NCBI RefSeq assembly: GCF_004006295.1
Contig: NZ_CP026095.1
Location: forward strand, 446,001-510,000
DNA length: 64,000 nt
Origin: Peribacillus asahii
Lineage (GTDB): Bacteria; Bacillota; Bacilli; Bacillales; DSM-1321
Direction: 5' to 3'
Shown: in pieces, positions 1,402 to 21,652 of the stretch
Layout: the number at the start of each line of letters is the position of its first letter
How positions within the stretch are numbered: the first letter of the stretch is position 1
The notes under the pieces: generated by a model
What the model was told of the DNA's origin: nothing
The model's database searches: none
What the model saw: only the letters and a program-made list of their open reading frames with translations
Translations under genes and position numbers: made by a program

Positions 1402-2496
1402 ATGAGCAATACAATCAATACAATGTTTAAAAAAGACCGTTTCCTACTCGGCACCTTTGCTACCAATTGCTCTGGGGGCATGACAGTTACTAAGATACCG
1501 GAGCGGTGGGAAAACTCATGGGAGAACAACCTTAAGCTGGCGAAGATGCTAGATGACGCGGATATCGACTTTATGCTGCCGATTGCGCGTTGGATCGGCT
1601 ATAGAGGCGAGACCGACTTTCATAGTTCTGTACTTGAACCAATCGCTTGGGCAGCTGGTCTTTTGGCGCAAACCCGAAATATCTCGATCTTTTCGACAAT
1701 CCATACGGTCGCTAACCATCCGGTTGTAGTGGCCAAACAACTCGCTACCCTGGACCAGATCGGACAAGGACGTGCTGGTCTAAACATCGTTGCCGGTTGG
1801 AACGAGCCGGAATATCAAGCACTAGGCCTGAATTTACCTAACGATCACGAAACTCGTTACGCCTATGCACAAGAGTGGTTCAACATTGTTAATAAACTCT
1901 GGAAAGAAGAGAGCCGCTTTGACTGGAATGGCGACTATTTCAAACTCAAGCAGGTGAAGGGCGAACCACGTCCCGCCGGCGATATACCGATACTAAATGC
2001 TGCTGGGTCTAGCCAGGGGCGCGAATTCGCGGTCCGCAACGCTAACTTCTTGTTTACTCCGACAATCGACGTGTCGCGATCTAAAGACGAGGTCTCCGAT
2101 CTGAAGGCTCAGGCGACGCGCTCTGGTCATAGCGTTGATGTCCTTACCTTTTCACACGTTGTTTGTCGCCCTACTGAAGAAGAGGCGCTCAAGTTTTTGG
2201 AGCACACCGCCAAGACCAATGCTGACTGGGAAGCCGTAGATAACCTCGTCAGGCTGCAGTTCGCCCATGCTCATTCATTTCCTCATGATCTGTTAGCATT
2301 AATCCGTGATCGTTTTGCTTCTGGACACGGTGGGTTTCCGTTGGTTGGCACACCGCAGCAAGTGGCAGACGGGATTATCTCACTAGCCGAGGCCGGCTTT
2401 CGGGGAACTACGCTATCCTTTGTTGATTACAACGCTGAGTTTCCTTATTTCCGCGACACGGTATTGCCGATCCTAGCCCAACGCGGTTTGCGTTGA
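1402..2496 (+). CDS. LLM-class flavin-dependent monooxygenase (RutA-like)
   Basis: A luciferase-like (bacterial luciferase alpha/beta barrel) monooxygenase of 364 residues, resembling the pyrimidine monooxygenase RutA / dimethylsulfone monooxygenase SfnG branch. Visible landmarks are the N-terminal strand LLGTFATNCSGG, the IFSTIHTVANHPVV segment and GRAGLNIVAGWNEPEY, typical FMN-binding regions of these FMNH2-dependent enzymes. ATG at 1402 is preferred because GGGGG at 1390-1394 lies 7 bases upstream; an in-frame ATG at 1378 lacks a site. The gene is clearly richer in G+C than its neighbours and uses codons such as CGC, GCG and GTC far more, which suggests acquisition from another source. It is flanked by hairpins. 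The substrate is unknown. Confidence 0.8.
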   Translation: MSNTINTMFKKDRFLLGTFATNCSGGMTVTKIPERWENSWENNLKLAKMLDDADIDFMLPIARWIGYRGETDFHSSVLEPIAWAAGLLAQTRNISIFSTIHTVANHPVVVAKQLATLDQIGQGRAGLNIVAGWNEPEYQALGLNLPNDHETRYAYAQEWFNIVNKLWKEESRFDWNGDYFKLKQVKGEPRPAGDIPILNAAGSSQGREFAVRNANFLFTPTIDVSRSKDEVSDLKAQATRSGHSVDVLTFSHVVCRPTEEEALKFLEHTAKTNADWEAVDNLVRLQFAHAHSFPHDLLALIRDRFASGHGGFPLVGTPQQVADGIISLAEAGFRGTTLSFVDYNAEFPYFRDTVLPILAQRGLR

Positions 2497-3903: not shown

Positions 3904-4105
3904 TGATTTGGGCTTATTATCAACTAAAGAGATTGAATCAATAACGATGATATTCAAAATAACTTTGAGGGAGAGTGATAAAAAATTAAAGAAATACATG
4001 TCGATGAAGTCCATCGTGTTTTAGAAATGGGTAGATAGTGAAGATATGCTAATGAAAACCAAAAGGTATCAATGCTATTAAATACGCATATAAGGAGAAA
4101 TGATT

Positions 4106-5581
4106 ATGGGAATCCGTACAGGTGCTCAATATATAGAGGCAGTAAAGGCAAGAAAACCTGAAATTTGGATGGCGGGGAAAAAGGTTGAAAGCGTGTTAGA
4201 TGACCCAGTATTAAAACAGACAGTACTTGAAATCGCCAAGCTATATGATATGCAACATGATCCGGAATATCAAGATAAGATTACTCATATCTGTGAAGAA
4301 ACTGGAGAAAGAGTGAACAATGCGTTTTTGGTTCCAAAAAACTATGAAGACTTAACTAAGCGTAGAGCAGCGTTTGAGGCCTTCGCAAAGGCTACTTTTG
4401 GTTTAATGGGAAGATCTCCAGACTTTTTAAATGTGGTAATTACTTCTTTGTACAGTAATGCTAACTTTTTTGAAAAGTACAATCAGCAGTGGGCTGAAAA
4501 TATGCGCAATTACTATCGACATGTTCGCGATAATGATTTGTTTTTAACGCATGCCATTATCAATCCTCAAAATGACCGAAGCAAATCCTCTCATGAGCAA
4601 CAGGATATGTTTTCTCATTTAGGAGCTGTTGAAGAGACGCCTGAAGGACTTATTGTGAGAGGTGCTAAATTTTTGGCTACACTTGCTCCTATAACAGATG
4701 AGGTTATTATTTATACCTTCCCAGGATACAAACCGGGTGATGAACGTTATGCGCTATCATTTGCACTTCCAATTGATACACCAGGACTTCGAATTATTTG
4801 CCGCGAACCGATGCAAGATGGGAAGCGTCCATTATTTGACCATCCATTGGCATCACGCTTTGAAGAAATGGATGCTCTGTTAGTCTTTAAAGATGTTTTA
4901 GTTCCTTGGGATCGAGTGTTTATTTATAACAATATTGAGGCTGCAAACCTTCTTTATCCCAAAACGGGAATCGCCCTGCAACCTGCTCATCAATCAGCAG
5001 TGAGAGGGCTCTTGAAAATTCAATTTGCTACCGAAGTAGCATGCAGGTTAGCTGACTCAATCGGAGTAGATACATTTTTACATGTACAGGAAAAACTTGG
5101 TGAGTTAATCCAAGCTGTGGAATCTATTAGAGCATTAATGCTTGTTGCTGAGCATGAGTATGAGATTACACCAGAGGGTGAGGCTATTCCGAATTGGGTA
5201 CCTCTTGAAACAATTCGAGGTTTCTTGCCGACGATGTATCCCCGTGCGATTGAACTGATGCAAACAATAGGGGCTGGCGGATTATTGTTGAGTCCAACTG
5301 GTGCTGATTTTGAAGATCCAGAGCTGAGAGAAGATATGGATCGCTATTATGTAGGAAGAGCGGGAGTTTCTGCAATCGATCGTGTAAGCGTATTCAAACT
5401 TGCTTGGGATTTGTGCGGGGAAGCGTTTGGACAACGTTTACTCCAATATGAACGTTATTATACAGGTGATCCGATACGGAAGAAAGCCATTTTTTATAAT
5501 ACAATTAAACGTCAACGTACGTTTGACATGGTTGATGAAGCATTACAAGTTAGCAAGTTGGAAGAACTAATAAACAAGTAA
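4106..5581 (+). CDS. Anthranilate 3-monooxygenase-type FADH2-dependent oxygenase (HpaB family)
   Basis: A 491-residue member of the 4-hydroxyphenylacetate 3-hydroxylase (HpaB) family. It shows the N-terminal [19 protein letters not shown] segment, the central [19 protein letters not shown] region and the [14 protein letters not shown] segment typical of the acyl-CoA-dehydrogenase-like fold. HpaB relatives use free FADH2 to ortho-hydroxylate aromatic rings. An enzyme of this type in Geobacillus thermodenitrificans was characterised as anthranilate 3-monooxygenase, working with an FAD reductase and a FAD-forming enzyme. The next two genes here match those partners, and downstream genes process 3-hydroxyanthranilate. 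The ATG at 4106 has AAGGAG eight bases before it. Substrate is inferred from context; 4-hydroxyphenylacetate is the main alternative. Confidence 0.85.
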
Positions 5582-5606
5582 TACTTTGGTTTTATGTAAG
5601 GAGGAG

Positions 5607-6140
5607 GTGGAGGATATAGAAACACATGCAGAAGGAATGTTAACACTGCCAAGCTCGGTCATAGCAATTGGCGCGTTCGATGGGGTTCATCAAGGGCATC
5701 AAGCTGTGATTAGAGAAGCTGTGAAAAGAGCTAAGATTCTAGGAGTACCAAGTTTGATATATACATTTGATCCCCCTCCTCGATTTTATTTTCAAGGGGT
5801 TCGTATTTTAACTACGGTTGAAGAGAAACTGGTCTTATTAGATAAGTTAGGGGTCAATCATGTTGTGATTGCACGGTTTGATGAATTTTACACAATGCGT
5901 CCCCCTATAGATTTTATTGAAGATTTAAAGAAATTTAGTCCAGTAGAAATCATAGTAGGAAGTGACTTCCGATTTGGAGGAAATCGAGAAGGAGATATTC
6001 AACTACTTGAACAGTATTTCCAGGTTCGAGTTAATCAGCCTGTTTGTTGCTCAAAGGGTAAGGTTATTTCGTCTACCAGAATACGAAAACTGATATCAAC
6101 AGGAAACATTCAAGAATCCCTTTCTCTGTTGGGACGGTAA
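5607..6140 (+). CDS. FMN adenylyltransferase (FAD synthetase) domain protein, RibF N-terminal half only
   Basis: The protein matches the adenylyltransferase half of bifunctional RibF: the nucleotide-binding motif AIGAFDGVHQGHQ lies near the N terminus, GSDFRFGG in the middle and ISSTRIRKLISTGNI near the end. RibF is about 310 residues; here the frame stops right after the adenylyltransferase domain (LLGR), so the riboflavin kinase domain is absent. It should make FAD from FMN and ATP, feeding the neighbouring FAD-dependent oxygenase and reductase. The start is uncertain: AAGGAGGAGG at 5598-5607 overlaps the first usable codons, GTG at 5607 is adopted, and ATG at 5637 would cut into the expected N terminus. 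It begins immediately after the oxygenase gene and is probably co-transcribed. Confidence 0.8.
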   Translation: MEDIETHAEGMLTLPSSVIAIGAFDGVHQGHQAVIREAVKRAKILGVPSLIYTFDPPPRFYFQGVRILTTVEEKLVLLDKLGVNHVVIARFDEFYTMRPPIDFIEDLKKFSPVEIIVGSDFRFGGNREGDIQLLEQYFQVRVNQPVCCSKGKVISSTRIRKLISTGNIQESLSLLGR

Positions 6141-6239: not shown

Positions 6240-6776
6240 ATGAAATTATTAGGAATATCTGGAACTGTTATTGGGGCGAAAACATGCGTTGTTGTACAGA
6301 AGATTTTAGAGGAAGTTAAAAAAACACATCCGGAAGTTGACGTGGAATTGTTGGACTTGAGAAATTACTCTGTTTCCTTGTGTGATGGACGTGACCTTTC
6401 CAGTTATTCGGATGATACAAAAAAGGTTGTTGACATTGTTTCGTCTGCTGATTTCTATATTATCGGTACCCCGATATTTCAAGGCTCTCTCTCTGGGGCG
6501 CTTAAAAACTTGTTTGACTTGGTGCATCCGCAAATTCTACGCAATAAAGTAATGGGGTTTATTGCTACAGGTGGAACTTATCAACATTACTTAGTGATTG
6601 AAAATCAATTAAAACCAATTGCTGGTTATTTTCGGGCCTTCGTAGCACCGGGCTCTGTTTACGCTCATACCGACCATTTCAATAAGCAGAATGAAATAGT
6701 GGATGAAGAAGTATTAAGCAGAATTTCGGATTTGGCAAAAGAAGTAGTCTTTATGCAAAAAGCATTAAAAGCCTAA
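6240..6776 (+). CDS. NAD(P)H-dependent flavin reductase, FAD-supplying component
   Basis: A 178-residue flavodoxin-fold reductase of the NADPH-dependent FMN reductase family (PF03358). It begins with the phosphate-binding strand-loop LLGISGTVIGAKT and carries GTPIFQGSLSGALKNLFD, the characteristic flavin-contact segment. It would reduce FAD with NADH and hand FADH2 to the oxygenase encoded two genes upstream. In the characterised Geobacillus anthranilate system the partner is an NADH:FAD reductase. AAGGAGG lies just before the ATG. The approximately 100-base gap to the preceding gene has no clear terminator, so one operon is likely. Confidence 0.8.
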   Translation: MKLLGISGTVIGAKTCVVVQKILEEVKKTHPEVDVELLDLRNYSVSLCDGRDLSSYSDDTKKVVDIVSSADFYIIGTPIFQGSLSGALKNLFDLVHPQILRNKVMGFIATGGTYQHYLVIENQLKPIAGYFRAFVAPGSVYAHTDHFNKQNEIVDEEVLSRISDLAKEVVFMQKALKA

Positions 6777-7057: not shown

Positions 7058-7151
7058 TGGTGACAAATTTAAATAAGGCGATATGGATCTTAAGCTCTCA
7101 CAAAAATCAAACAATGAAACAATAAAAAACATATATGGAGTGATTAAAACT

Positions 7152-7700
7152 ATGAGTACTTTGAATAAAACTTTTAATACCATTAATTTATGGAAATTTA
7201 TTGAGGAAAATAAAGATCAACTTAAACCTCCAGTGAATAATAAAGTGATTTGGAAAGATGCAGAATTGATGGTTCAAGTTATTGGGGGCCCGAATAAACG
7301 ACGTGAATTCCATGTAGACCCATCAGAAGAAATTTTCTATCAGCTAAAGGGGGATTGTTATGTAGAAATCATCAATGAAGAAGGGAAGAGGGAGGTAATA
7401 ACTGTAAAGGAAGGAGAGTTATTTTGGCTTCCTCCAAATGTTCCCCATTCTCCGCATAGGGTTGCTGATACTATTGGTATTGTAATAGAACGTAACAGGG
7501 CAAAAGGAGAGAGTGAGGACTTTGTCTGGTTCTGCGATAAGTGTGATCATGAGATGCATCGAGTAAATGTTCAGCTAACCAATATTGAAACGCAAGTGAA
7601 AGAAGCAATTAATGGATTTAACAGTAGCCTTGAACTCCGGACATGTAAAAATTGTGGACATGTTATGTCGACGGAAGCAGGGGAATGGAAATGCGAGTAG
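7152..7700 (+). CDS. nbaC: 3-hydroxyanthranilate 3,4-dioxygenase
   Basis: A 182-residue cupin dioxygenase. Likely ferrous-iron ligands His54, Glu60 and His99 occur in EFHVDPSEEIFYQ and PNVPHSPHR. The C-terminal tail has two CxxC pairs (C128/C131 and C165/C168), the rubredoxin-like second metal site of bacterial 3-hydroxyanthranilate dioxygenases. It opens the ring of 3-hydroxyanthranilate to 2-amino-3-carboxymuconate semialdehyde. ATG at 7152 is chosen over an upstream ATG at 7083 because the protein then begins where the family does and GGAGTG lies about 10 bases ahead. The gene overlaps the start of the decarboxylase gene by ten bases. Confidence 0.92.
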   Translation: MSTLNKTFNTINLWKFIEENKDQLKPPVNNKVIWKDAELMVQVIGGPNKRREFHVDPSEEIFYQLKGDCYVEIINEEGKREVITVKEGELFWLPPNVPHSPHRVADTIGIVIERNRAKGESEDFVWFCDKCDHEMHRVNVQLTNIETQVKEAINGFNSSLELRTCKNCGHVMSTEAGEWKCE

Positions 7701-8695
7701 ATTTTCATACACATATTATTCCAGAGAGTATTCCAGATTTCTTAAAAAAATTTCAAGGAGATCGATGGCCTGTCCTACAACGAACTTGTTCCTGTGGAGC
7801 CAATATTATGGTTGCGGGAAAAGTTTTTCGAGAAGTGACAGATCAAGTTTGGAGCCCTGAAAAGCGAATTCAAGACATGGAACGAGAAAAGGTGGATATG
7901 CAGGTTTTATCCCCTATTCCTGTAACATTTTCTTATTGGGCGCCTGCTGAAGAAGCGGAAATTATGGCCCGTATTCAAAATGACTTTATCGCAGAAACAG
8001 TAAATCAGTATCCAACAAAATTTATTGGACTAGGTACGGTCCCATTGCAAAATGCAACTCTTGCTATTCGAGAGATGGATCGCTGTATTCACGAGTTGGG
8101 CTTAAAGGGGATTGAAATTGGAACTAATGTAAATGGAAAAAATCTAGATGATCCTTCATTAGTTGAATTTTTTGAAATGTGTGAGAAGTGGGAGGTTCCT
8201 CTATTTGTTCACCCATGGGAGACGTTAGGAGGAGAAAGAATGCCCCGTCACAATTTAATGTACACGGTCGGCATGCCTAGTGAAACGGCCCTAGCAGCAG
8301 CTAGTTTAATATTGGGCGGTGTGATGGAGAAGTTTCCTAGGTTAAAAATTTGCTTTTCTCACGGCGGAGGATCTTTCCCATTCATTCTTCCTCGATTAGA
8401 TAAAGGGTGGCAAGTATGGCCGCATTTACGACTAATCGACAAACCTCCAAGTTATTATGCCAAGAAGTTTTATTTTGATTCGATTGTAAATGATCCAGTG
8501 AATATCAAATATCTCGTTGAAAATTTTGGACATGATCGAGTGATTATGGGGTCGGATTACCCATTCTTACTTCGAGAAGTTCCACCGGGCCAGGTTATTG
8601 ACGATGCCATGGCACTCACTTCAGAACAAAAGCTAGCTATGCTTGGAGAGAATGCTCTTAAATTTTTAAATATGGAAAAAGCGGTGATTAAATAA
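7691..8695 (+). CDS. 2-amino-3-carboxymuconate-6-semialdehyde decarboxylase (ACMSD)
   Basis: A 334-residue amidohydrolase-superfamily protein matching ACMSD. Zinc ligands are visible as His6 and His8 (DFHTH), His174 (FVHPWE) and Asp289 (MGSDYPF), with catalytic His224 in FSHGGGSFPF. It decarboxylates the unstable ring-opened product of the preceding dioxygenase to 2-aminomuconate semialdehyde and so diverts it from quinolinate. ATG at 7691 overlaps the previous stop, preceded by an AGGGG site. Its stop overlaps the next ATG (TAATG), indicating coupled translation within one operon. Confidence 0.92.
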   Translation: MRVDFHTHIIPESIPDFLKKFQGDRWPVLQRTCSCGANIMVAGKVFREVTDQVWSPEKRIQDMEREKVDMQVLSPIPVTFSYWAPAEEAEIMARIQNDFIAETVNQYPTKFIGLGTVPLQNATLAIREMDRCIHELGLKGIEIGTNVNGKNLDDPSLVEFFEMCEKWEVPLFVHPWETLGGERMPRHNLMYTVGMPSETALAAASLILGGVMEKFPRLKICFSHGGGSFPFILPRLDKGWQVWPHLRLIDKPPSYYAKKFYFDSIVNDPVNIKYLVENFGHDRVIMGSDYPFLLREVPPGQVIDDAMALTSEQKLAMLGENALKFLNMEKAVIK

Positions 8696-9156
8696 TGAAA
8701 AACCAAACGATGACACCTGAAGAAAGATTGGAAGAACTAGGATTAGTACTACCTGCACCGCGTCAAGCGGCTGGGAACTATGTCAGCTGTGTACGGACAG
8801 GAAACTTGATTTTTACGTCTGGACAAGGTACCGATGAGTATCGCGGCAAGCTCGGTAAGGATGTAACGATTGAAGTTGGATATGATGCTGCTAAGCAGTG
8901 CATGATGAATCTCTTGACAGTCGTAAAACAAGAGATCGGGGAACTAAGTAAAGTAAAACGCATTGTTAAAATATTAGGGTTTGTGAATAGTACTCCTGAT
9001 TTTACTAATCAGCCCCAAGTAATGAATGGTGCTTCAGATTTGTTGGTAGAAGTATTCGGCGAGAAAGGGAAACATGGAAGATCGGCTGTTGGAATGGGCC
9101 AACTCCCACATAATAATGCGGTCGAAGTGGAAATGATCTTAGAGATAGAGGAATAG
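8695..9156 (+). CDS. RidA-family 2-aminomuconate deaminase
   Basis: A 153-residue YjgF/YER057c/UK114 (RidA) family protein. The C-terminal GRSAVGMGQLPHNNAVEVEM corresponds to the conserved active-site region with its Arg. Aminomuconate deaminases of nitrobenzene and 3-hydroxyanthranilate pathways belong to this family. Its place between the ACMS decarboxylase and the semialdehyde dehydrogenase supports conversion of 2-aminomuconate to 4-oxalocrotonate plus ammonia. The start overlaps the previous stop. A general enamine deaminase role is the alternative. Confidence 0.85.
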   Translation: MKNQTMTPEERLEELGLVLPAPRQAAGNYVSCVRTGNLIFTSGQGTDEYRGKLGKDVTIEVGYDAAKQCMMNLLTVVKQEIGELSKVKRIVKILGFVNSTPDFTNQPQVMNGASDLLVEVFGEKGKHGRSAVGMGQLPHNNAVEVEMILEIEE

Positions 9157-9166
9157 GAGGATACAA

Positions 9167-10633
9167 ATGAGCTCTTTACAGGGAAATCAAATGAAAGTGA
9201 AAGACGCAAAACTTTTTATCAACGGTGAATATATTAATGCGATATCAGGTGAGACATTCGATACGATTGATCCTTCAACAAACCGGAAACTTGCTTCAGT
9301 GGCAAATGCTGGTGAGCAAGATGTTAAGTATGCGATTGAGGTCGCACAACGTACGTTCGAAAGTGGTATTTGGAGTGAAATGCCGGTTGAGGAAAGATCG
9401 AAAATTCTTTGTAGAATGTCTGATTTAGTTATGGAACGAGTAAATGAGTTGGCTCTTATTGAAACGCTAGATGTTGGAAAGCCAATTAAAGAGAGTCGAG
9501 AATTTGATATTCCTAGGGCGGCATCTAATTTACGTTTCTTTGCTGAAATGGCTAAATATGTCCACCAAGAGAATTATCAACAATCTAAACATATGTCCTA
9601 TACAAAGTATGCAGCAGCAGGTGTGACTAGCTTGATCATTCCATGGAATCTTCCTTTTATGCAAATGACATGGAAGGTATCTGCAGCATTGGCTGCCGGA
9701 AATACAGTCGTTGTGAAGCCGGCCTCTTATACACCACTCAGTGCGGTTATGTTAGGGGAAATTGCTAATGAAGCAGGACTTCCCCCAGGTGTCTTAAATA
9801 TTATTACTGGACCGGGTGGAACCGTCGGTACTGCAATGTCCACAAACCCATATGTACGCCGTATTTCTTTTGTTGGGGAAACGACGACCGGTCAAACGGT
9901 TATGAAAAACGCTGCTTCCCAATTAATCCCTGTATCGCTTGAATTGGGCGGGAAGTCAGCCAATATCGTTTTTGAAGATGCAGATCTAGATGAGGCGGTA
10001 AAAGGTTCGATTGAAGCTATTTTTAGAAATCAAGGGGAAATCTGCTTGGCCGGTTCTCGCTTGTTAGTACAAGAAAGCATTTATGATAAATTTTTAGACA
10101 AGTTTGTTAATGCTGTCAAGAAGATTAAGGTTGGAGATCCGTTGGATGAAACTACCGATATGGGAGCTCTAGTTTCCCGCAGTCATTTAGAAACAGTAGA
10201 TCATCATGTTCAATCCGGAATGTCTGAAGGGGCAAAACTAGCAATTGGTGGTAAGCGAATTGTGGGATTAGGTGAAGGAAACTTCTATGAGCCTACTGTT
10301 CTTTACGATGTAGATAACAAAATGAGAGTAGCCCAAGATGAAATATTTGGTCCTGTACTTGTTGTGATTCCTTTTAAAACAGAAGAAGAGGCAGTGAGCA
10401 TTGCCAATGACTCGATTTACGGTCTTGCGGGTGTGGTCTGGACGAATGATCTACAGCGAGCTCACAGAGTTGCCTCCCGAGTCAATTCTGGCTTGTTCTG
10501 GATCAATTGCTGGTATTACAGAGATTTGAGAACTCCTTTTGGAGGGTCAAAGGCGAGCGGAATCGGTCGAGAAGGTGGACGTCATAGTTTTGAATTCTAC
10601 ACGGAAGCAAAAACTATTACGATGAAATTATAG
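9167..10633 (+). CDS. 2-aminomuconate 6-semialdehyde dehydrogenase
   Basis: A 488-residue NAD(P)-dependent aldehyde dehydrogenase with all family landmarks: PWNLPF at 159-164, catalytic Glu259 in LELGGKSANI, nucleophile Cys293 in NQGEICLAGSR, and EIFGPVLVV in the C-terminal part. Hydroxymuconate and aminomuconate semialdehyde dehydrogenases are closely similar; the neighbouring ACMSD and deaminase favour 2-aminomuconate semialdehyde as substrate. AGGAGG lies eight bases before the ATG at 9167. It is separated by ten bases from the deaminase gene and belongs to the same operon. Confidence 0.9.
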   Translation: MSSLQGNQMKVKDAKLFINGEYINAISGETFDTIDPSTNRKLASVANAGEQDVKYAIEVAQRTFESGIWSEMPVEERSKILCRMSDLVMERVNELALIETLDVGKPIKESREFDIPRAASNLRFFAEMAKYVHQENYQQSKHMSYTKYAAAGVTSLIIPWNLPFMQMTWKVSAALAAGNTVVVKPASYTPLSAVMLGEIANEAGLPPGVLNIITGPGGTVGTAMSTNPYVRRISFVGETTTGQTVMKNAASQLIPVSLELGGKSANIVFEDADLDEAVKGSIEAIFRNQGEICLAGSRLLVQESIYDKFLDKFVNAVKKIKVGDPLDETTDMGALVSRSHLETVDHHVQSGMSEGAKLAIGGKRIVGLGEGNFYEPTVLYDVDNKMRVAQDEIFGPVLVVIPFKTEEEAVSIANDSIYGLAGVVWTNDLQRAHRVASRVNSGLFWINCWYYRDLRTPFGGSKASGIGREGGRHSFEFYTEAKTITMKL

Positions 10634-10696
10634 AAGCAAAATATAAAGAGTGGCTAAGCGTCACTCTTTATATTATCAGAAAGGGAGGGGATTCTC

Positions 10697-11476
10697 TTGA
10701 GTTTATTATTAGAAGCATTAGCAGATAAATTGATAGAAGCAGAGCAAAGTAAGCATCCACTAGATCCACTTACACAGCAATATCCTGAATTGAGTGTGAC
10801 GGACGCTTACCAAATTCAGCTAAAAGTCATGGAGAAAAAGAGAACAGAAGGACATCGGGTTATTGGCAAGAAAGTAGGGCTTACAAGTGTGGCAATGCAG
10901 AAAATGCTAGGAGTCAATGAACCGGATTATGGCCATTTGTTGGATGATATGCAGGTTAAAGATGGGGAGAAAGTCAAAATTAGCGATATGATTAGTCCGA
11001 AAGTAGAGGCGGAAATTGGTTTTATCCTTGGGCAAGATCTAGTTGGTCCGAACGTCACTTATCTGGATGTATTAATGGCCACTAAGCATGTGGTACCCAC
11101 GATTGAGATTATTGATAGTCGTATTACTGATTGGAAGATTCAATTAATAGATACTGTCGCTGATAATGGTTCTTCAGCCAAAGTAGTGGTTGGGGACAAG
11201 AAGAGTACGATAGACGGTTTAGATTTACGCAGTGTTGGTATGGCTCTTTATAATAATGAAGATCTCGTAGCAACAGGTTCTGGGGCTGCTGTGCTTGGGC
11301 ATCCTGCACAGGCGATCGCATGGTTGGCGAATAAATTGCACGAGTTTGGTATTCAGCTTAAAGCAGGTGAGTTAATTCTGCCTGGAGCACTTTCTGGGGC
11401 ATTGACTGTTAAGCGAGGAGATACCATTTCAGCTCATTTTGGTCCGCTTGGTTCGGTTTCTGTAGCTTTTGAGTAA
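10697..11476 (+). CDS. 2-oxopent-4-enoate hydratase (DmpE/MhpD type)
   Basis: A 259-residue member of the fumarylacetoacetase-like hydratase/decarboxylase family. KVGLTSVAMQKMLGV near residue 60, metal-binding SPKVEAEIGFIL near residue 100 and the GAAVLGHPAQAIAWLANKL segment are typical. It would hydrate 2-hydroxypenta-2,4-dienoate to 4-hydroxy-2-oxovalerate. It is paralogous to the decarboxylase 200 bases downstream; assignment of hydratase here follows the usual dmpE-F-G-H order. The start is TTG with GGGAGGGG ahead. A 63-base interval after the dehydrogenase contains a short hairpin (AGAGTG...CACTCT) that may tune downstream expression. Confidence 0.85.
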   Translation: MSLLLEALADKLIEAEQSKHPLDPLTQQYPELSVTDAYQIQLKVMEKKRTEGHRVIGKKVGLTSVAMQKMLGVNEPDYGHLLDDMQVKDGEKVKISDMISPKVEAEIGFILGQDLVGPNVTYLDVLMATKHVVPTIEIIDSRITDWKIQLIDTVADNGSSAKVVVGDKKSTIDGLDLRSVGMALYNNEDLVATGSGAAVLGHPAQAIAWLANKLHEFGIQLKAGELILPGALSGALTVKRGDTISAHFGPLGSVSVAFE

Positions 11477-11491
11477 ATGGGGGGAGTTTAT

Positions 11492-11671
11492 GTGAGTAAA
11501 GTTAAAGCAGTGATTATCGGTTCAGGTAAGATCGGTACCGATCTTATGTATAAGTTGGAAAGAAGTGAAGTGATGGAACTTGGAAAGAGAAACGTGGTTG
11601 GGGGTCAAGAAGATATGATTCTTGACATGGCTGCTGAATTGGCTAAATCCCAAAAATCGGGGGTGCAATAA
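11492..11671 (+). pseudogene. In-frame deletion scar fusing the start of acetaldehyde dehydrogenase to the end of 4-hydroxy-2-oxovalerate aldolase
   Basis: The 59-codon frame starts at GTG 11492 (GGGGGGAG site just upstream). Its first half, [20 protein letters not shown], is the NAD-binding N terminus of acylating acetaldehyde dehydrogenase (DmpF/MhpF, about 300 residues). Its second half, [17 protein letters not shown], matches the C-terminal end of 4-hydroxy-2-oxovalerate aldolase (DmpG/MhpE, about 340 residues). In dmp/xyl/mhp operons these genes lie in exactly this order between hydratase and decarboxylase. An in-frame deletion of roughly 1.7 kb, with a junction near 11572-11585, explains the fusion. 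The product can have neither activity. An assembly collapse is the main alternative. Confidence 0.85.
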
Positions 11672-12459
11672 TGGCAATTACTCAAGGAGCAGATTTAGAA
11701 ATCGTTGAATATCTTTTATCAGCGGAAAAGGAACGCCGGGAAGTTACAAAAATCACAGATAAATATCCAAACTTGACTTTCGAAGAAGCGTATATCTTAC
11801 AGGAGAAATTGATTCAACAAAAAGAACAAGAAGGTGCTCGGCGAATTGGATTAAAACTTGGTTTAACAAGTAAGGCCAAACAGGAGATGATGGGGGTTCA
11901 CGAAGCCATTTACGGCTATTTGACAGATGATATGCTTGCTTTCGAATGGGCTCCTCTTGAGTTTAATCAACTCATCCATCCGAAGGCCGAACCGGAAATC
12001 GCTTTCTTTATTGGAGAAGATCTTCAGGGAACCAATGTTACTGCAGCTGATGTATTAAGTGTAACCCAATATGTTGCTCCGGCACTTGAAATTATCGACA
12101 GCCGATATTTAGATTTTAAATTCACCCTTGTGGATGTTATTGCGGATAATTGCTCTTCGGCTCGCTTTGTAATAGGGGATAAATGGATATCGCCTGCTAA
12201 TCTCAATTTGGCGGAATTAGGAATGTTTATGTCTAAAAACGGAGAAGTAGCTACGGTAGGAGCAGGTGCCGCTGTTTTGGGGCACCCTGCCACATCCGTT
12301 GCTTGGGCAGTTAATAAAATGGGGGAAATCGGAAAGGGCTTAAGGAAAGGGGACATTGTGCTAAGCGGTGCCATATCCGAAGCCATCGCCTTCCAACCTG
12401 GAGATTCTATCCTCGCTCAATTTGCAGAATTAGGGAGTGTATCATTCACTTGTAAATAG
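11671..12459 (+). CDS. 4-oxalocrotonate decarboxylase (DmpH type)
   Basis: A 262-residue paralogue of the hydratase upstream, sharing KLGLTSKAKQEMMGV, metal-site HPKAEPEIAFFIG and GAAVLGHPATSVAWAVNKM. In known meta-cleavage operons the decarboxylase (dmpH/xylI) follows the aldolase gene and works in complex with the hydratase to give 2-hydroxypenta-2,4-dienoate. The ATG overlaps the last base of the scar frame. It is the last gene of the operon, followed by a hairpin terminator. Confidence 0.87.
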   Translation: MAITQGADLEIVEYLLSAEKERREVTKITDKYPNLTFEEAYILQEKLIQQKEQEGARRIGLKLGLTSKAKQEMMGVHEAIYGYLTDDMLAFEWAPLEFNQLIHPKAEPEIAFFIGEDLQGTNVTAADVLSVTQYVAPALEIIDSRYLDFKFTLVDVIADNCSSARFVIGDKWISPANLNLAELGMFMSKNGEVATVGAGAAVLGHPATSVAWAVNKMGEIGKGLRKGDIVLSGAISEAIAFQPGDSILAQFAELGSVSFTCK

Positions 12460-15280: not shown

Positions 15281-16882
15281 ATGAAAATGTGGAAAGTATC
15301 GCTTCAAACCAAAATTCTTGGATTAGTATTATCATTAAGCTTATTTCTAATCCTCCTATTAACGACTTTCTTTACTTACATGGAAGGAAGGCAAATAGTA
15401 GAAGATAAAGGCCGCTTAGCCTTAGAGCTATCGAAAACTATTTCTTTTATGCCGACCATCATCGAGGCCATTGAATCAAAGAATCCATCCGAGAAGATCC
15501 AACCTATTGTAGAAAAAATCCGTCATGAAACGGGTGCCGAATTTATCGTCGTAGGAAATGCAGATGGAATACGTTATTCCCATCCGCTAGCATCAGAAAT
15601 AGGAAAACATATGATAGGTGGAGATAATGAACGAGCCATTCAAAAAGGTGAGTATTATATTTCAGAAGCAAGAGGTTCCCTTGGACTTTCTATGCGTGGA
15701 AAATCACCAATCTTTAATCAGAACGGCGAGATAATCGGAATTGTTTCAGTCGGATTTTTAGTGGAAGATGTTCGTGAACAAATCTTTGAAGATGTGTCTA
15801 AAGAAATTGTTGTATCAGTCATAGCGCTTCTTTTATCTATAATCGGCAGTTATATGCTTGCCAGAAGTATACGTAAAGATACATTAGGATTAGAGCCAAT
15901 GGAAATTGCTAACCTATATAAAGAAAAAAATGCTGTACTCCATTCTGTGAAAGAGGGAATCTTAGCCATTGATCGAAATGGAGTAATTACATCTATGAAC
16001 CAACCAGCTAAAAAACTGTTAGATATAAAAGGTTCTGTCCGCGATTTGAAAGTGGATGGTTATTTTCCTTCTACTTATTTGTACGAAGTGTTGAAATCAG
16101 CAGAGCCACAAATCGATAAAGAAATGACGTGGAAGCATAAAACGGTTATTGTCAATTGCACCCCCATTTTTGATGGTGAACATGTAAGTGGTGTAGTTGC
16201 TTCGTTTCGTGATAAAACAGAAATAGAGCAAATGGTTAATACATTATCAGAAGTTAAAGTATATTCAGAGGATTTAAGGGCGCAGACACATGAGTTTACT
16301 AATAAATTATATGTGCTATCTGGATTAATACAATTAGGGGAATATAAAGAGGCTATAGATATGATACAAAGTGAGACGTCCGAACTTCAATCTTTAAACC
16401 GAATTGTATTCGAACAGATAAAAGATACAAAGGTTCAGGCTATTTTATTAGGAAAGTTAGGTAAAGCATCGGAAAAGAAAGTTACTTTTGAAATCGATAC
16501 GCAAAGTTATTTAGAGGCATTGCCGACTCATATAACATTATCCGAGCTTACTTTAATCCTTAGTAACATCATAGATAATGCCTTTGAGGCTGTTTTTGGC
16601 ATTGAGGAACCGATTGTAACATTTTTTGCCACTGATATCGGAGAGGATATTATTTTTGAAATTAGTGACAATGGAAAGGGAATAGACGTAGAAGATATCT
16701 CGCTTCTCTTTGAAAGGGGATTCACTTCGAAAACGGGTAAGTTTCCAAGGGGTTATGGACTTTCAAACGTTGACCATGCAGTAAAAGAGCTAGGTGGTAT
16801 TATCGAGGTACAAAGCGAAAAAGAAAATACCATATTTACAGTTTATCTTCCTAAGAACAGAGAGGTGAAGAAAAATGGTTAA
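15281..16882 (+). CDS. citS: Sensor histidine kinase CitS (citrate sensor, CitA/DcuS family)
   Basis: A 533-residue kinase: a first membrane span at about residues 10-30, a periplasmic-type PAS/sCache domain (30-175), a second span (VVSVIALLLSIIGSYML), a cytoplasmic PAS domain, the HEFTNKLYVLSGLIQLGEY segment holding the phospho-accepting His, and a C-terminal ATPase with DNAFEAV, DNGKGI and GYGLSNV. The HxxxN dimerisation motif places it with the CitA/DcuS/MalK group. The downstream regulator and citrate-type transporter match the CitS-CitT-CitM arrangement known in Bacillus subtilis (542, 226 and 433 residues there). MalK is the main alternative. Confidence 0.82.
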   Translation: MKMWKVSLQTKILGLVLSLSLFLILLLTTFFTYMEGRQIVEDKGRLALELSKTISFMPTIIEAIESKNPSEKIQPIVEKIRHETGAEFIVVGNADGIRYSHPLASEIGKHMIGGDNERAIQKGEYYISEARGSLGLSMRGKSPIFNQNGEIIGIVSVGFLVEDVREQIFEDVSKEIVVSVIALLLSIIGSYMLARSIRKDTLGLEPMEIANLYKEKNAVLHSVKEGILAIDRNGVITSMNQPAKKLLDIKGSVRDLKVDGYFPSTYLYEVLKSAEPQIDKEMTWKHKTVIVNCTPIFDGEHVSGVVASFRDKTEIEQMVNTLSEVKVYSEDLRAQTHEFTNKLYVLSGLIQLGEYKEAIDMIQSETSELQSLNRIVFEQIKDTKVQAILLGKLGKASEKKVTFEIDTQSYLEALPTHITLSELTLILSNIIDNAFEAVFGIEEPIVTFFATDIGEDIIFEISDNGKGIDVEDISLLFERGFTSKTGKFPRGYGLSNVDHAVKELGGIIEVQSEKENTIFTVYLPKNREVKKNG

Positions 16883-17561
16883 AATAAGAGCGGTCATCGC
16901 AGAAGATGATTTTCGGGTAGCAGATATTCATGAGAAGTTTCTTGATAGGTTCGAAGAAATAGAAGTGGTTGGTAAAGCTTTGAATGCAGAACAGACTATT
17001 GAAATTTTGGAGCAAAAGAAACCTAATCTCCTTCTTCTTGATGTATATATGCCAGACCAACTTGGCTCTGATTTGCTTCCGATTATTCGGCAAAAATACA
17101 AGCATATCGATATTATTATGATTACAGCAGCAACCGATAAAGAAATACTGGAAAAGGCACTTCGCTATGGTGTGGAGTATTACTTGATAAAACCAGTAAA
17201 GATAGAGCATTTTCAGCAAATTATTGAAGAATATCTTAATAAATACCATCTTATGCAAACTGACCAAGAAATTAATCAGGAATTTATTGATCGTATTTTT
17301 AAAAAAGGCACGCCTCCAAGCGCGGTAAATAAGGAGACTTCTTTACCAAAGGGAGTCGATGATATTACTTTATCGAAAGTAAGAATAGTACTTGAGAAAA
17401 GCTCTATTGGATTATCAGCAGAACAAGTGAGCAGACAGATTGGTGCTTCAAGAACGACAGCAAGGCGCTATTTGGAATATTTGATTTCTGTGCAGGAATG
17501 TAAAGCGGAAGTTGTATACGGTGTAGTAGGCAGGCCTGAGCGTAGATATTATAAGATTTGA
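16875..17561 (+). CDS. citT: Response regulator CitT
   Basis: A 228-residue regulator with an N-terminal receiver domain (acidic EDD at 10-12, phospho-acceptor Asp56 in LLLLDVYMP, conserved Lys in LIKPVK) and a C-terminal helix-turn-helix (LSAEQVSRQIGASRTTARRYLEYL), the layout of the CitB/DcuR family. The ATG overlaps the end of citS by eight bases, with GAGGTGAAG ahead, so the two are co-translated. In B. subtilis CitT activates citM when citrate is present; the transporter gene follows here after a terminator and its own control region. Confidence 0.85.
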   Translation: MVKIRAVIAEDDFRVADIHEKFLDRFEEIEVVGKALNAEQTIEILEQKKPNLLLLDVYMPDQLGSDLLPIIRQKYKHIDIIMITAATDKEILEKALRYGVEYYLIKPVKIEHFQQIIEEYLNKYHLMQTDQEINQEFIDRIFKKGTPPSAVNKETSLPKGVDDITLSKVRIVLEKSSIGLSAEQVSRQIGASRTTARRYLEYLISVQECKAEVVYGVVGRPERRYYKI

Positions 17562-17570
17562 TGAAAGAAT

Positions 17571-17614
17571 GGCTAAGCAGTCCTTCATGAAGGACTGCTG
17601 GCTGTTCTTTTTTA
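17571..17614 (+). terminator. Terminator after citST
   Basis: AGCAGTCCTTCATGAAGGACTGCT is a perfect self-complementary stem with a minimal loop, followed by GGCTGTTCTTTTTTA. Confidence 0.85.
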
Positions 17615-17717
17615 TGAAATGAGCTCAAAAACTAAACATTGCCTTATGATGGTACTGTTAAAGTTTTCCGTGAACATAATGAACAAAATTAACGTAATAG
17701 TTTTAATAAACAGTAAA

Positions 17718-17734
17718 TTGCAAACGCTTACAAA
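17718..17734. promoter_or_regulatory. cre site (CcpA operator) upstream of citM
   Basis: TTGCAAACGCTTACAAA matches the catabolite-responsive-element consensus WTGNAARCGNWWWCAWW at every position. It lies 54 bases before the citM start, where bound CcpA would block transcription. Glucose repression of citM through CcpA is established in B. subtilis. Confidence 0.85.
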
Positions 17735-17787
17735 CGGAGTCTCATAGATTACAATTTATCTAAATTAGTAGATAAGGAGTGATCAAA

Positions 17788-19080
17788 ATGCTCGCTTTAT
17801 TAGGGTACTTAATGATTTTAGTATTTATGATTTTAATTATGACAGGGCGACTTTCGGCTATGATTGCTTTAATTGTCGTACCAATTGTCTTTGCTCTTAT
17901 AGGTGGATTTGGCAGCGAAATGGGTCCTATGGCGCTAGAAGGGATTAAAAGCGTTGCCCCAACAGGTATTATGATTTTATTTGCTATTCTTTTCTTTGGT
18001 ATTTTGATTGATGCTGGAGTTTTTGATCCAATTATAAGGACAATCCTTAAGCTTGTAAAAGGTGATCCTGTAAAAATTGCTATCGGAACAGCGGTTTTGG
18101 CTCTTCTTATTTCGTTAGATGGGGACGGAACGACGACTTACATGATTACGATTTCTGCTATGCTTCCTCTTTATAAAAGAATTGGCATGAAACCACTTAT
18201 TCTAGCAGGGATTGCTGTTTCAGCCTCAGGAGTCATGAATCTCCTTCCTTGGGGAGGACCGACAGCACGAGTGATGACAGCTTTGAATCTTGAAATGTCT
18301 GATGTTTTTACACCTGTTATTCCTGCTATGATTGGCGGTATTTTATTTGTTCTCTTCATGGCTTTTGTTCTTGGTAGAAAGGAAAGAAAGAGAATTGGTG
18401 TAATAGAGTTTGACTACAAGATTGCGGCTCAACATGCTGCTGCAGTAGAGGATGCGCATCTTAAACGTCCTAAATTAATCGTTTTTAACTATGTATTAAC
18501 AGTAGTTCTTTTGGTAGCGCTCATTATGGAGTTATTACCGTCAGCTGTATTGTTCATGATTGGTTTTGCGATTGCCATTACAATTAATTATCCAAAAATG
18601 AGTGATCAAAAGGAACGTGTAGCGAATTATGCAGATAATGCTTTATCAGTTATTTCGATGATTTTTGCAGCTGGAATTTTCACTGGAATTCTTGCAGGGA
18701 CTGAAATGGTAGATGCCATGGCAAACTCGTTGATTAAGCATATCCCGGACGCAATGGGGTCGCATTTTGCTGTAATCACTGCGATTATTAGTGCACCATT
18801 TACTTTCTTTATGTCCAATGACGCTTTTTATTATGGTGTTCTGCCGCTGCTTGCCAAGGCGGGAGCTGCATATGGGATTGATCCTGCTTTAATTGGGAGA
18901 GCTTCTCTTTTTGGTTTACCGGTTCATCTATTAAGTCCTCTTGTTCCGTCCACCTATTTATTAGTTGGGATGGTAGGGGAGGATTTTGGTAAACTTCAAG
19001 GTTCTTTCTTAAAATGGGCGTGCGGATCAACCATTGTCATGATGGTGGTTGCAGTCGTATTAGGGATAATTCCTTTATAA
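17788..19080 (+). CDS. citM: CitMHS-family citrate:metal transporter CitM
   Basis: A 430-residue membrane protein of the CitMHS family, the size of B. subtilis CitM. It starts LALLGYLMILVFMILIMTGRLSA and carries LLISLDGDGTTTYMITISAML and the LPWGGPTARV loop, conserved in transporters that import citrate complexed with Mg or other divalent metals. ATG at 17788 has AAGGAG eight bases before it; the GTG at 17779 overlaps that site. Control by CitST and a perfect cre site indicates citrate induction and glucose repression. The metal preference (CitM versus CitH type) cannot be decided by eye. Confidence 0.87.
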   Translation: MLALLGYLMILVFMILIMTGRLSAMIALIVVPIVFALIGGFGSEMGPMALEGIKSVAPTGIMILFAILFFGILIDAGVFDPIIRTILKLVKGDPVKIAIGTAVLALLISLDGDGTTTYMITISAMLPLYKRIGMKPLILAGIAVSASGVMNLLPWGGPTARVMTALNLEMSDVFTPVIPAMIGGILFVLFMAFVLGRKERKRIGVIEFDYKIAAQHAAAVEDAHLKRPKLIVFNYVLTVVLLVALIMELLPSAVLFMIGFAIAITINYPKMSDQKERVANYADNALSVISMIFAAGIFTGILAGTEMVDAMANSLIKHIPDAMGSHFAVITAIISAPFTFFMSNDAFYYGVLPLLAKAGAAYGIDPALIGRASLFGLPVHLLSPLVPSTYLLVGMVGEDFGKLQGSFLKWACGSTIVMMVVAVVLGIIPL

Positions 19081-19110
19081 AATAGTCGATGAAGAAGGTC
19101 AATCGAGTAA

Positions 19111-19140
19111 AAGCAAGCGGTGACAATCGCTTGCTTCTTT
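19111..19140 (+). terminator. Terminator after citM
   Basis: AAGCAAGCG pairs with CGCTTGCTT across an eight-base loop, followed by CTTTGCTTT. Confidence 0.75.
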
Positions 19141-19240
19141 GCTTTCATTGCAACATAAGAAAAATAACTCGTTGATTCGGTCGTTTATAACAAAAAACGG
19201 TTTAGTATTCTATTATATGTTTTAGAAAAAGGTGAGCGGA

Positions 19241-20164
19241 GTGGGAATTTTTTATCAGATTTTATTACATATTATTTTTCCATTATTCGCGTTGATTGGG
19301 GTAGGGATATGTCTGCATCGTTTATTGAAACTCAGCTTATCTACATTATCAACGTTAACGATTTATGTTTTGCTCCCAGCTGTATGCTTTGTTAATATTT
19401 ACAAAAGTGATATATCTGGAAATTTAATTGGTCAAACGCTTTTATTTTTATTGTTTTTTAATTTACTTCTTATAATGATTAGCAGTCTGCTTGCTAAAGT
19501 AAATCGATTCGATCGCCAGTTGTCATCTACTTTTAAAAATAGTTTTGTTTTAAGCAATTCAGGAAACTATGGTCTACCAGTAAGTGAACTTGTTTTTTCT
19601 TCTAATCCGGCCGGTATGGCAATCCAAATCATCGTTTCTATATTTCAAAATTTACTTACCTTTACATATGGGTTTTATAATTCAGTTTCCGCTCAAAGCA
19701 GCGGGAAGGATATTGTCTGGAAAATTCTCAAGTTACCAGTTATTTATGCCTTGTTACTTGCTGTTTTACTGCGCTGGATGCATGTTGATATTCCTGATTA
19801 TTTATGGAAACCAATTGAAAATACGTCTAATGCTTTTTCGGCCATTGCTCTTATCACACTGGGGGCCCAAGTAGCTTATTTAAAAATTACCCGTATTTCT
19901 CGACCAATTGTGTGGATAGTCATTGGCCGTCTTGTTCTTTCTCCTTGTATTGCATGGTTAGTTATTTTTGGACTTGGTTTATCTGGTACAATTGCGCAGG
20001 CACTTTTTATTGCTAGTGCCTTTCCGACGTCAAGAAACAGTGCACTGCTAGCACTTGAATATGATAATTATCCAAATGTCGCTTCGCAGGCTGTCCTGCT
20101 TACAACTATCCTTAGTAGTATTACTGTAGCGATTGTTATCTATTTAGCCAAAATCCTTTTTTAG
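19241..20164 (+). CDS. AEC-family (auxin efflux carrier-like) transporter
   Basis: A membrane protein of about 307 residues with roughly ten spans, typical of the bacterial AEC family: N-terminal IIFPLFALIGVGI, VLLPAVCFVNIYKSDI in span two, NSGNYGLPVSELVF around residue 110, and ALFIASAFPTSRNSALLA near the end. Family members such as MleP and MdcF move malate, malonate or other organic acids. Position after citM is compatible with organic-acid transport, but the substrate is not known. GTG at 19241 has AAAGGTGA upstream; GTG at 19232 is nine bases earlier. Confidence 0.8.
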   Translation: MGIFYQILLHIIFPLFALIGVGICLHRLLKLSLSTLSTLTIYVLLPAVCFVNIYKSDISGNLIGQTLLFLLFFNLLLIMISSLLAKVNRFDRQLSSTFKNSFVLSNSGNYGLPVSELVFSSNPAGMAIQIIVSIFQNLLTFTYGFYNSVSAQSSGKDIVWKILKLPVIYALLLAVLLRWMHVDIPDYLWKPIENTSNAFSAIALITLGAQVAYLKITRISRPIVWIVIGRLVLSPCIAWLVIFGLGLSGTIAQALFIASAFPTSRNSALLALEYDNYPNVASQAVLLTTILSSITVAIVIYLAKILF

Positions 20165-20472: not shown

Positions 20473-21652
20473 GTGAGAATTGTAATGGTTCCGTCAGGAT
20501 TTAAAGAATGTTTGGATGCGGAGGAAGTGGCGTTAGCGATGGAGCGAGGGGCAAGAAAATTTAATCAAACGTTTGATTTAGAAGTTGTTCCGATGATTGA
20601 TGGAGGAGAAGGGTTTGCCAAAACAATTGTGAATTTAAAAGATGGAGAGCTTATTTATAGAGAAGTGACGGGTCCGGTAGGAGAGAAGATTATCAGTTAC
20701 TTTGGAATCTTTGTGGAGGGTGATAGACGAACAGCTGTGATTGAAATGGCTGCTGTTGCAGGGTTAAAGTTGGTGCCGCGCAATCAAAGGAATCCGTTAA
20801 AAAACGACAACATATGGTGTAGGAGAGTTGATTCGTTCTGCCCTCGATTTTGGTGTCGACCATATTCTCATCGGTTGCGGTGACTCAGGTACATCCGATG
20901 GAGGAGCAGGATTAGCTCAAGCATTAGGTGTTCGATTTTTAGATAAGGACAAACAAATAATCGAAGTCCATGGTGGAGAGGATTTGATAAAGGTCGATTC
21001 GATTGACACAACACAGCTAGATCAACGGCTAGGGAATGTGACCGTCGATGTTGCTTGTAATTGGCAGAACGTGTTATGCGGAGAGAAAGGGGTCGCACGT
21101 GTTTTCGGTCCTCAAAAAGGAGCAACATCCCAACAAGTAGAGCAATTATCATCAGCGTTAGAGCATTATGCTTCTTTAATTCAAGAAGAGTTAGGGATGG
21201 ATGTCCGATTACTTCCAGGGGGCGGAGCATCGGGTGGGCTAGGAGCAGGACTGATTGCTTTTACAGGTGCTGTATTGCACCCTCGCTTTGATATTATTAT
21301 GGACTACATTCGTATAGAAGAAAAAATTGCGACGGCAGATGTGGTCATGACAGCGGAAGGAAGTTTAGATTTTCAAACGCCAAATGGAAAGATTCCGTCA
21401 GAGGTTGCACGAATTGCTAAAAAACATAACATCCCGGTCATTGCTATTACCGGTACGATTGGTGAAGGAGCCGCTTTAAACTATCAGGCAGGTATCGATG
21501 CTTATTTAAGCATTATTCAAAAGCCGACATCTTTAGAAAAAGCGATGATAAAAGCACCGAAATGGATTGAAGAAAGTACAGAATCTGTGTTAAGACAAAT
21601 CGTCATTGGCTTAGAAATGGCCGAGAAGAAGCTGATTAGAGAAAGGATTTAG
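20473..21652 (+). pseudogene. glxK: Glycerate kinase, interrupted by a single-base frameshift
   Basis: The frame at 20473 begins like GlxK/GarK glycerate kinases (VMVPSGFKECLDAEEVA, MIDGGEGF) and reads correctly through NPLK. The continuation, TTYGVGELIRSALDFGVDH then CGDSGTSDGGAG and LLPGGGASGGLGAG, lies in the +1 frame and runs to 21652. The change of frame falls at six A bases at 20799-20804; five A would restore one frame of about 392 codons, close to the usual 380 residues. All motifs remain on either side, so the mutation is recent, a sequencing slip in a homopolymer, or corrected by slippage. The start has GGGGAGGAATG upstream. A transporter gene follows after four bases. Confidence 0.88.

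Follow-up and report, generated by a model that had tools for sequence, protein, structure and literature searches.

Geobacillus thermodenitrificans NG80-2 is described, in the available part of its account, with an FAD-dependent anthranilate hydroxylase, a riboflavin kinase/FMN adenylyltransferase, an FAD reductase and meta-cleavage of 3-hydroxyanthranilate (PMC4539516). The phe operon of Geobacillus stearothermophilus has the order pheD-pheF-pheE-pheC, which corresponds to hydratase-DmpF-DmpG-decarboxylase, and Pseudomonas pseudoalcaligenes C70 carries two redundant catechol meta pathways, of which both operons are expressed and are useful together (PMC2590616 and PMC5336314, both in the parts available). 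Within the genus of the present strain, Peribacillus simplex RUG2-6 (L105) has the order nbaC-D-F-E-hydratase-DmpF-DmpG-decarboxylase.

The DNA analysed here, called the window, is the whole stretch of 64,000 nucleotides from Peribacillus asahii, and it carries the same gene order as P. simplex but for dmpFG. As in the available description of NG80-2, a hydroxylase and flavin enzymes are followed by genes for meta-cleavage of 3-hydroxyanthranilate (PMC4539516). In place of dmpF and dmpG there is a short frame, and with a probability of roughly 0.8 we regard it as what a genuine in-frame deletion of about 1.7–1.8 kb left behind, a loss tolerated because of an IclR-dmpF-dmpG unit that would act in trans from elsewhere in the genome.

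The operon and its truncated frame

The genes of the operon are the following, with positions in the window.

4100..5581, plus strand: HpaB-type flavin monooxygenase, probable anthranilate 3-hydroxylase (TIGR02309, E 1.8e-139, slightly below cut-off)
5586..6140, plus strand: riboflavin kinase/FAD synthetase N-terminal-like protein (NF004160, E 1.6e-39, below cut-off)
6240..6776, plus strand: FMN reductase, probably of the hydroxylase system (TIGR03566, below cut-off)
7083..7700, plus strand: 3-hydroxyanthranilate 3,4-dioxygenase, NbaC (TIGR03037 and NF009763, above cut-off)
7652..8695, plus strand: amidohydrolase, probable aminocarboxymuconate semialdehyde decarboxylase (PF04909, no NCBIfam match; putative NbaD role)
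8695..9156, plus strand: Rid-family protein, probable 2-aminomuconate deaminase (TIGR00004, below cut-off; putative NbaF role)
9167..10633, plus strand: aldehyde dehydrogenase in the place of the 2-aminomuconic semialdehyde dehydrogenase (putative NbaE/AmnC role)
10697..11476, plus strand: 2-oxopent-4-dienoate hydratase, DmpE/MhpD type (TIGR03220, E 4.1e-89, best NCBIfam model, below cut-off)
11492..11671, plus strand: deletion stub DmpF-DmpG (profile matches, reading frame, alignment with the genome's own copies)
11671..12459, plus strand: 4-oxalocrotonate decarboxylase, DmpH type (TIGR03218, E 3.6e-86, best NCBIfam model, below cut-off; synteny)

NbaC scores 252.3 bits with NF009763 (cut-off 220) and 239.7 bits with TIGR03037 (cut-off 145.95). 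Judged by its gene content the operon is of the 3-hydroxyanthranilate (nba-type) meta-cleavage kind, the roles other than NbaC being assigned from matches below cut-off and from synteny, and the monooxygenase at 4100..5581 is a probable anthranilate 3-hydroxylase by analogy with Geobacillus NG80-2. The nba names, among them NbaE/AmnC, NbaF and NbaD, are those that we take to apply to these genes. The order nbaC-D-F-E-hydratase-dmpF-dmpG-decarboxylase is followed in the window except for dmpF-dmpG, which is cut to the stub. That this is the canonical place of the two genes, as the first-pass annotation had it, is confirmed by the relatives with intact genes: the order hydratase-DmpF-DmpG-decarboxylase is found in a locus of the same genus (L060) and in 55 of 74 Bacillota nbaC loci (from the best 80 of at least 203 matches).

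The stub is bordered by the hydratase and the decarboxylase and consists of one open frame of 59 codons with a GTG start, preceded by a purine-rich stretch, and a TAA stop that overlaps the start of the decarboxylase (TAATG). The peptide begins with DmpF residues 1–30 and continues in frame with the C-terminal ~29 residues of DmpG. The frame had been read as the N terminus of an acetaldehyde dehydrogenase joined to the C terminus of an aldolase, and both halves do match these families. Of the NCBIfam models, acetaldehyde dehydrogenase NF006157 matches stub residues 2–39 (E 4.1e-9, profile positions 4–39 of 303), TIGR03215 matches with E 3.4e-8 (profile positions 1–35 of 285), and the 4-hydroxy-2-oxovalerate aldolase model TIGR03217 matches residues 20–53 (E 3.3e-8, profile positions 299–333 of 334), while the last 26 positions of Pfam DmpG_comm match residues 27–52 (E 6.2e-10). 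The first half alone was matched by no DmpF model in Pfam, only by a Rossmann-like model with E 0.17. Against the full copies of the same genome the stub aligns with DmpF 1–30 at 73% and with DmpG 306–338 at 64% identity. Its scores are far below the equivalog cut-offs, 33.1 against 282.25 bits for TIGR03215 and 33.1 against 286 bits for TIGR03217, and it is thus neither a whole acylating acetaldehyde dehydrogenase nor a whole 4-hydroxy-2-oxovalerate aldolase. An RNA structure across the stub was rejected (z-score -0.29).

The distance from the start of DmpF to the aligned end of DmpG was measured in nine operon relatives, where it is 1884–1940 bp; in the separate unit of the same genome it is 1929 bp. 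About 1.7–1.8 kb is thus missing at the stub, in agreement with the in-frame loss of about 1.7 kb first proposed.

Two other apparently broken genes were noticed. Just upstream of the window there is a fragment in two frames (L201 6190-6433), kin of residues 1–82 of the cyclase at 373-1167 of the window, which is followed by an aldehyde dehydrogenase-like stretch. At 20473-21652 in the window two overlapping frames of 136 and 274 aa look like one gene split by a frame change, presumably a glycerate kinase gene.

A separate IclR-dmpF-dmpG unit

One of the possibilities raised earlier was that other copies exist in the genome, and a homologue search found them. There is one PF09290 match (DmpF), and one full PF07836 match (DmpG) in addition to the stub; a protein search also gave one DmpG. 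The intact pair is located at about 4.381–4.383 Mb on contig C1 of the same genome (G000), ~3.9 Mb from the window along the contig; on a circular contig the distance in the opposite direction would be 0.9 Mb. The features of this region are given with their positions in locus L004.

11231-12037, minus strand: IclR (IclR_C and HTH_IclR over cut-off)
10316-11200, minus strand: DmpF, trans copy (PF09290; TIGR03215, 462.5 against 282.25 bits)
9268-10290, minus strand: DmpG, trans copy (PF07836; TIGR03217, 538.6 against 286 bits)
1620-2417, minus strand: hydratase of an mhpB-type operon, with an in-frame stop after codon 80 (contig C1, about 4.3736–4.3744 Mb)

DmpF and DmpG are both well above the equivalog cut-offs, and the iclR gene is located directly upstream of dmpF on the same strand with 30 bp between them. 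Because one full dmpF and one full dmpG are thus present elsewhere, the pathway is probably not dead-ended, and the trans enzymes would serve the window pathway in vivo. The statement that 4-hydroxy-2-oxovalerate cannot be split is therefore right for the operon taken alone and wrong for the genome. The suggestion that the pathway now ends at a different product finds no support, with DmpFG present in trans; an alternative aldolase of the HpcH/HpaI family was rejected since a search for that family gave no match in the genome.

Upstream regions of iclR were aligned for 12 of the 13 units known from this and related genomes (L185 was left out). All 12 have TTGAC in common (TTGACA in 11), a promoter-like element, and all 12 carry a 28-bp motif with CGAAC-type half-sites. 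L185 itself has two motif matches, a moderate one between iclR and dmpF (score 22.7) and a weak one ahead of iclR (16.3); a match scoring 18.2 in L104 indicates the level of background. From its conservation it is predicted that IclR binds the 28-bp motif and controls dmpFG. Several pathways could be served by one unit if it responds to a signal of its own, which may be a late intermediate that they share. A common motif linking the window operon to this IclR was sought and rejected: no match with up to 3 mismatches was found in the window, where the best matrix score is 7.9, compared with 3.0–7.1 for column-permuted matrices and 35.7–45.1 for the training sites. Outside the solo units, strong matches (29–42) were found only in Brevibacillus L086, L094 and L200 among the 25 + 24 sources scanned. 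They precede iclR genes ahead of operons with intact dmpFG, and this position suggests that the solo unit may be a cut-down relative of such an IclR-preceded, Brevibacillus-type operon. In the genome of L094 the match to IclR is interrupted by two stops. In L200, from an uncultured Brevibacillus, a five-gene unit IclR-hydratase-DmpF-DmpG-decarboxylase with a strong copy of the motif is located at 15382-19843, ~9 kb from nbaC-D-F-E.

Directly beyond the IclR-dmpF-dmpG unit follows a second meta-cleavage operon with an MhpB-type (LigB) dioxygenase, an enzyme found in 4 of the 53 genomes searched, this one included. The corresponding operons in L206 and L207 lack dmpFG, with the hydratase open at 263 and 274 residues, and L194 has dmpFG inside the mhpB-type operon. 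The own-genome search detected no intact hydratase other than that of the window; its third match was the window decarboxylase. As the hydratase of the mhpB-type operon is interrupted by a stop, the two loci may depend on each other: from the gene content, the mhpB-type operon, if it is used, would borrow the hydratase of the window, and the window operon would borrow dmpFG.

Loss of dmpFG in related operons

A scan of named genomes for nbaC gave at least 203 confirmed matches, of which the best 80 were kept and six of Bacteroidota type (L142-L147) were set aside. The 74 remaining Bacillota loci comprise 55 with intact dmpFG, 11 without dmpFG, 7 incomplete ones (L074, L078, L079, L082, L096, L097 and L123) and the fragmented L117; the last eight were dropped from the counts. 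L117 has DmpF, with DmpG, nbaD and nbaE in pieces; it comes from one assembly of Peribacillus frigoritolerans, and the gene pieces could be sequencing errors. The genome search of the dropped loci, which left out L074, L079 and L097, found the solo unit in G067 (L082) and G074 (L096), dmpFG inside multi-gene operons in G073 (L078) and G075 (L123), and only the broken DmpG in G108 (L117).

Each of the 11 genomes with a dmpFG-less operon has one DmpF and one unbroken DmpG elsewhere (11/11, from the best 80 of at least 203 nbaC matches), and an iclR gene adjoins the pair in ten of them. The exception is G071, where the pair comes after the decarboxylase with no iclR alongside. In N. thermocopriae the unit is found ~5 kb downstream of the operon (L181). 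The 55 intact loci belong to 54 genomes (L105 and L136 share one), of which 51 were searched for DmpG (L120, L133 and L139 were left out; for the IclR search, G033 and G025 were used in place of G096 and G105). No solo unit was seen in these 51 genomes, again within the best 80 of at least 203 nbaC matches. A second DmpG is present in five of them (G080, G081, G084, G091 and G096), each time inside another multi-gene operon. Every DmpG of the 51 is located in a multi-gene catabolic operon, if a further, distant match in G076 (32%), not recognised by PF07836, is set aside.

Remains of lost copies were found in two relatives. Cytobacillus horneckiae has a degenerate DmpG between hydratase and decarboxylase (L102 14364-14802), and Neobacillus novalis, whose genome has the solo unit, has a second DmpG interrupted by one TGA and one TAG codon (L195 7253-8247, minus strand), located on another contig in another gene neighbourhood and followed by a hydratase/decarboxylase-like gene. 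Both would fit the same course of loss.

In a tree of DmpF-DmpG, 12 of the 13 solo rows and the pair of G071 form one group (SH-aLRT 96). The thirteenth row, L185 (G070, Sporosarcina sp. ACRSM), belongs to the nba-operon type and therefore seems to have become an IclR unit independently. Mapped on a tree of 67 operons, the lost state requires 5 changes, of which no fewer than 4 fall on starred branches. The hypothesis that all 12 losses share one origin is rejected (p-AU 3.5e-68, for a group chosen by its trait). The operons of L068 (Anoxybacillus sediminis) and L069 (Brevibacillus thermoruber) are very close in spite of the family border between them, with end branches of about 0.01, which reflects either a recent transfer or a misnamed record.

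In this sample the association between the solo unit and the loss of dmpFG is complete but for G071, and it rests on few independent events. Four independent contrasts are supported (5 in all), and the solo unit goes the same way in 3.8 of 4 independent pairs on average and never the opposite way; the sign test gives p 0.125, at least six contrasts being needed to reach 0.05. With only 4–5 events the cause and the order remain matters of interpretation, and we infer that the unit was gained before dmpFG was lost.

As to timing, one older deletion might be common to the window and five Neobacillus-type operons, the stub having since been erased in the others. This is compatible with the main reading, and we consider it a tentative minority view. 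IQ-TREE groups the window with the dmpFG-less L073, L075, L077, L080 and L083 (SH-aLRT 82), whereas FastTree groups it with the intact L072 of Aneurinibacillus thermoaerophilus (0.68), which is also the nearest row by tree path, 84% identical over the concatenated proteins. At E 1e-3, tblastn with the stub as query detected no remnant in any of the five loci, and a less strict comparison of DmpF and DmpG with the gaps of three of these loci turned up no convincing match; since the gaps measure 23–49 bp, such traces could be gone. The rejected single origin for all 12 losses says nothing on the window and these five operons.

The pattern looks like gene loss made permissible by a copy in trans, and it recurs in the sample. 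It is best taken as ordinary loss of this kind, set apart by its recurrence, by the self-regulated unit and by the opposite lesions in one genome.

The proposed deletion, remaining alternatives and comparison with known systems

The proposed course is that an in-frame deletion would have removed the adjacent dmpF and dmpG from an nba-type meta-cleavage operon and left the stub, after gain of a free-standing IclR-dmpF-dmpG unit that would supply the aldolase/dehydrogenase pair in trans. The stub would keep translation running into the overlapping start of the decarboxylase, and probably does nothing beyond this.

That the whole operon is decaying and the pathway out of use, as had also been suggested, is improbable. 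Decay is evident in the stub itself, and the two-frame cyclase-like fragment just upstream of the window and the hydratase stop in the second operon point the same way, but it is not evident elsewhere in the operon: the seven genes with counterparts in L072 are open and 80–89% identical to them, and an intact pair is present in trans.

An assembly artefact, with intact dmpFG at this place in the genome and ~1.7 kb dropped by the assembler, is somewhat less probable still. The cleanly in-frame junction would speak for it, but the assembly has 2 contigs and a completeness of 100, and the flanking genes have no same-strand 14-mer in common. Nor would the lost stretch be expected to form a repeat, since the trans pair shares only 66–69% (DmpF) and 72–74% (DmpG) identity with the pairs inside the operons of L072, L090, L070 and L071. 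Substitutions in the stub also argue for a real deletion, and for one that is not brand-new. A K replaces the N of GSGNIG, which is invariant in 80 of 80 intact DmpFs (near-duplicate loci included), and with this one there are four residues in 51 positions that are absent from all 66 unique intact rows; when each intact row was left out in turn, one also had four unseen residues and one had three. Over 55 codons compared with L072, 32 are identical, 15 synonymous and 8 nonsynonymous. With L072 the nonsynonymous to synonymous ratio is 7:15; the eight intact pairs compared gave lower values, from 3:30 to 9:22, but the top of this range is close, so the signal of relaxed constraint is modest. On this sequence evidence a real deletion appears likelier than an assembly gap.

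Similarity in register at the breakpoint is weak, with a median of 7 of 15 over 78 rows. In six of 7 single rows, 6–17% of registers did as well or better, and in the seventh 0.6% did. On this ground we set aside a strong direct repeat as the trigger of the deletion; a short homology is possible.

An independent function of the 59-residue peptide, such as binding the trans DmpG/DmpF through its tail, which is the end of the DmpG communication domain, is very improbable, for although the frame is open with a start, a purine-rich stretch and a stop, it carries the substitution at the invariant site and three other unseen residues, and a search of 5.8 billion proteins gave three candidates, namely itself and two DmpG C-terminal pieces (its cluster holds 2 member sequences from one contig).

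On a wider view, the IclR-dmpF-dmpG unit of Bacilli might be a self-regulated common last step for several aromatic pathways, whose presence would permit repeated loss of dmpFG inside operons and, in this genome, losses in both directions; we would give this even odds. In the window and 11 other operons both dmpFG are gone as working genes and a separate copy, mostly with its own regulator, could serve. This suggests a route by which a linear catabolic operon may be dismantled, and for annotators it means that an incomplete operon need not be a dead pathway. Genomes that have the solo unit and genomes that lack it form natural pairs in which to test whether a shared last module causes local loss. 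Among the matches listed from open-licence PMC papers, no title or start of an abstract concerned this loss or an IclR-dmpFG unit.

Compared with known structures, the trans DmpG aligns with PDB 1nvm over residues 4–335 and the trans DmpF over 3–260. We take 1nvm to be the DmpFG aldolase-dehydrogenase complex of Pseudomonas; here the pair is encoded as an IclR-dmpF-dmpG unit apart from the ring-cleavage genes. In P. simplex RUG2-6 both nba operons retain intact dmpFG, and the search revealed no solo unit, whereas the window has the stub. The last two enzymes are missing from the window operon; NG80-2 lies outside the best 80 loci, and the comparison with it covers the enzymes named in the available description (PMC4539516). 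The phe operon has pheF and pheE, with the regulator PheR inside the operon, while the window is without an intact pair; a free-standing IclR-dmpFG unit is not described in the available part of that account (PMC2590616). P. pseudoalcaligenes C70 is alike in having two meta operons in one genome, but according to the available part of its account both are useful, whereas here each operon is without a working gene that is held at the other locus (PMC5336314).
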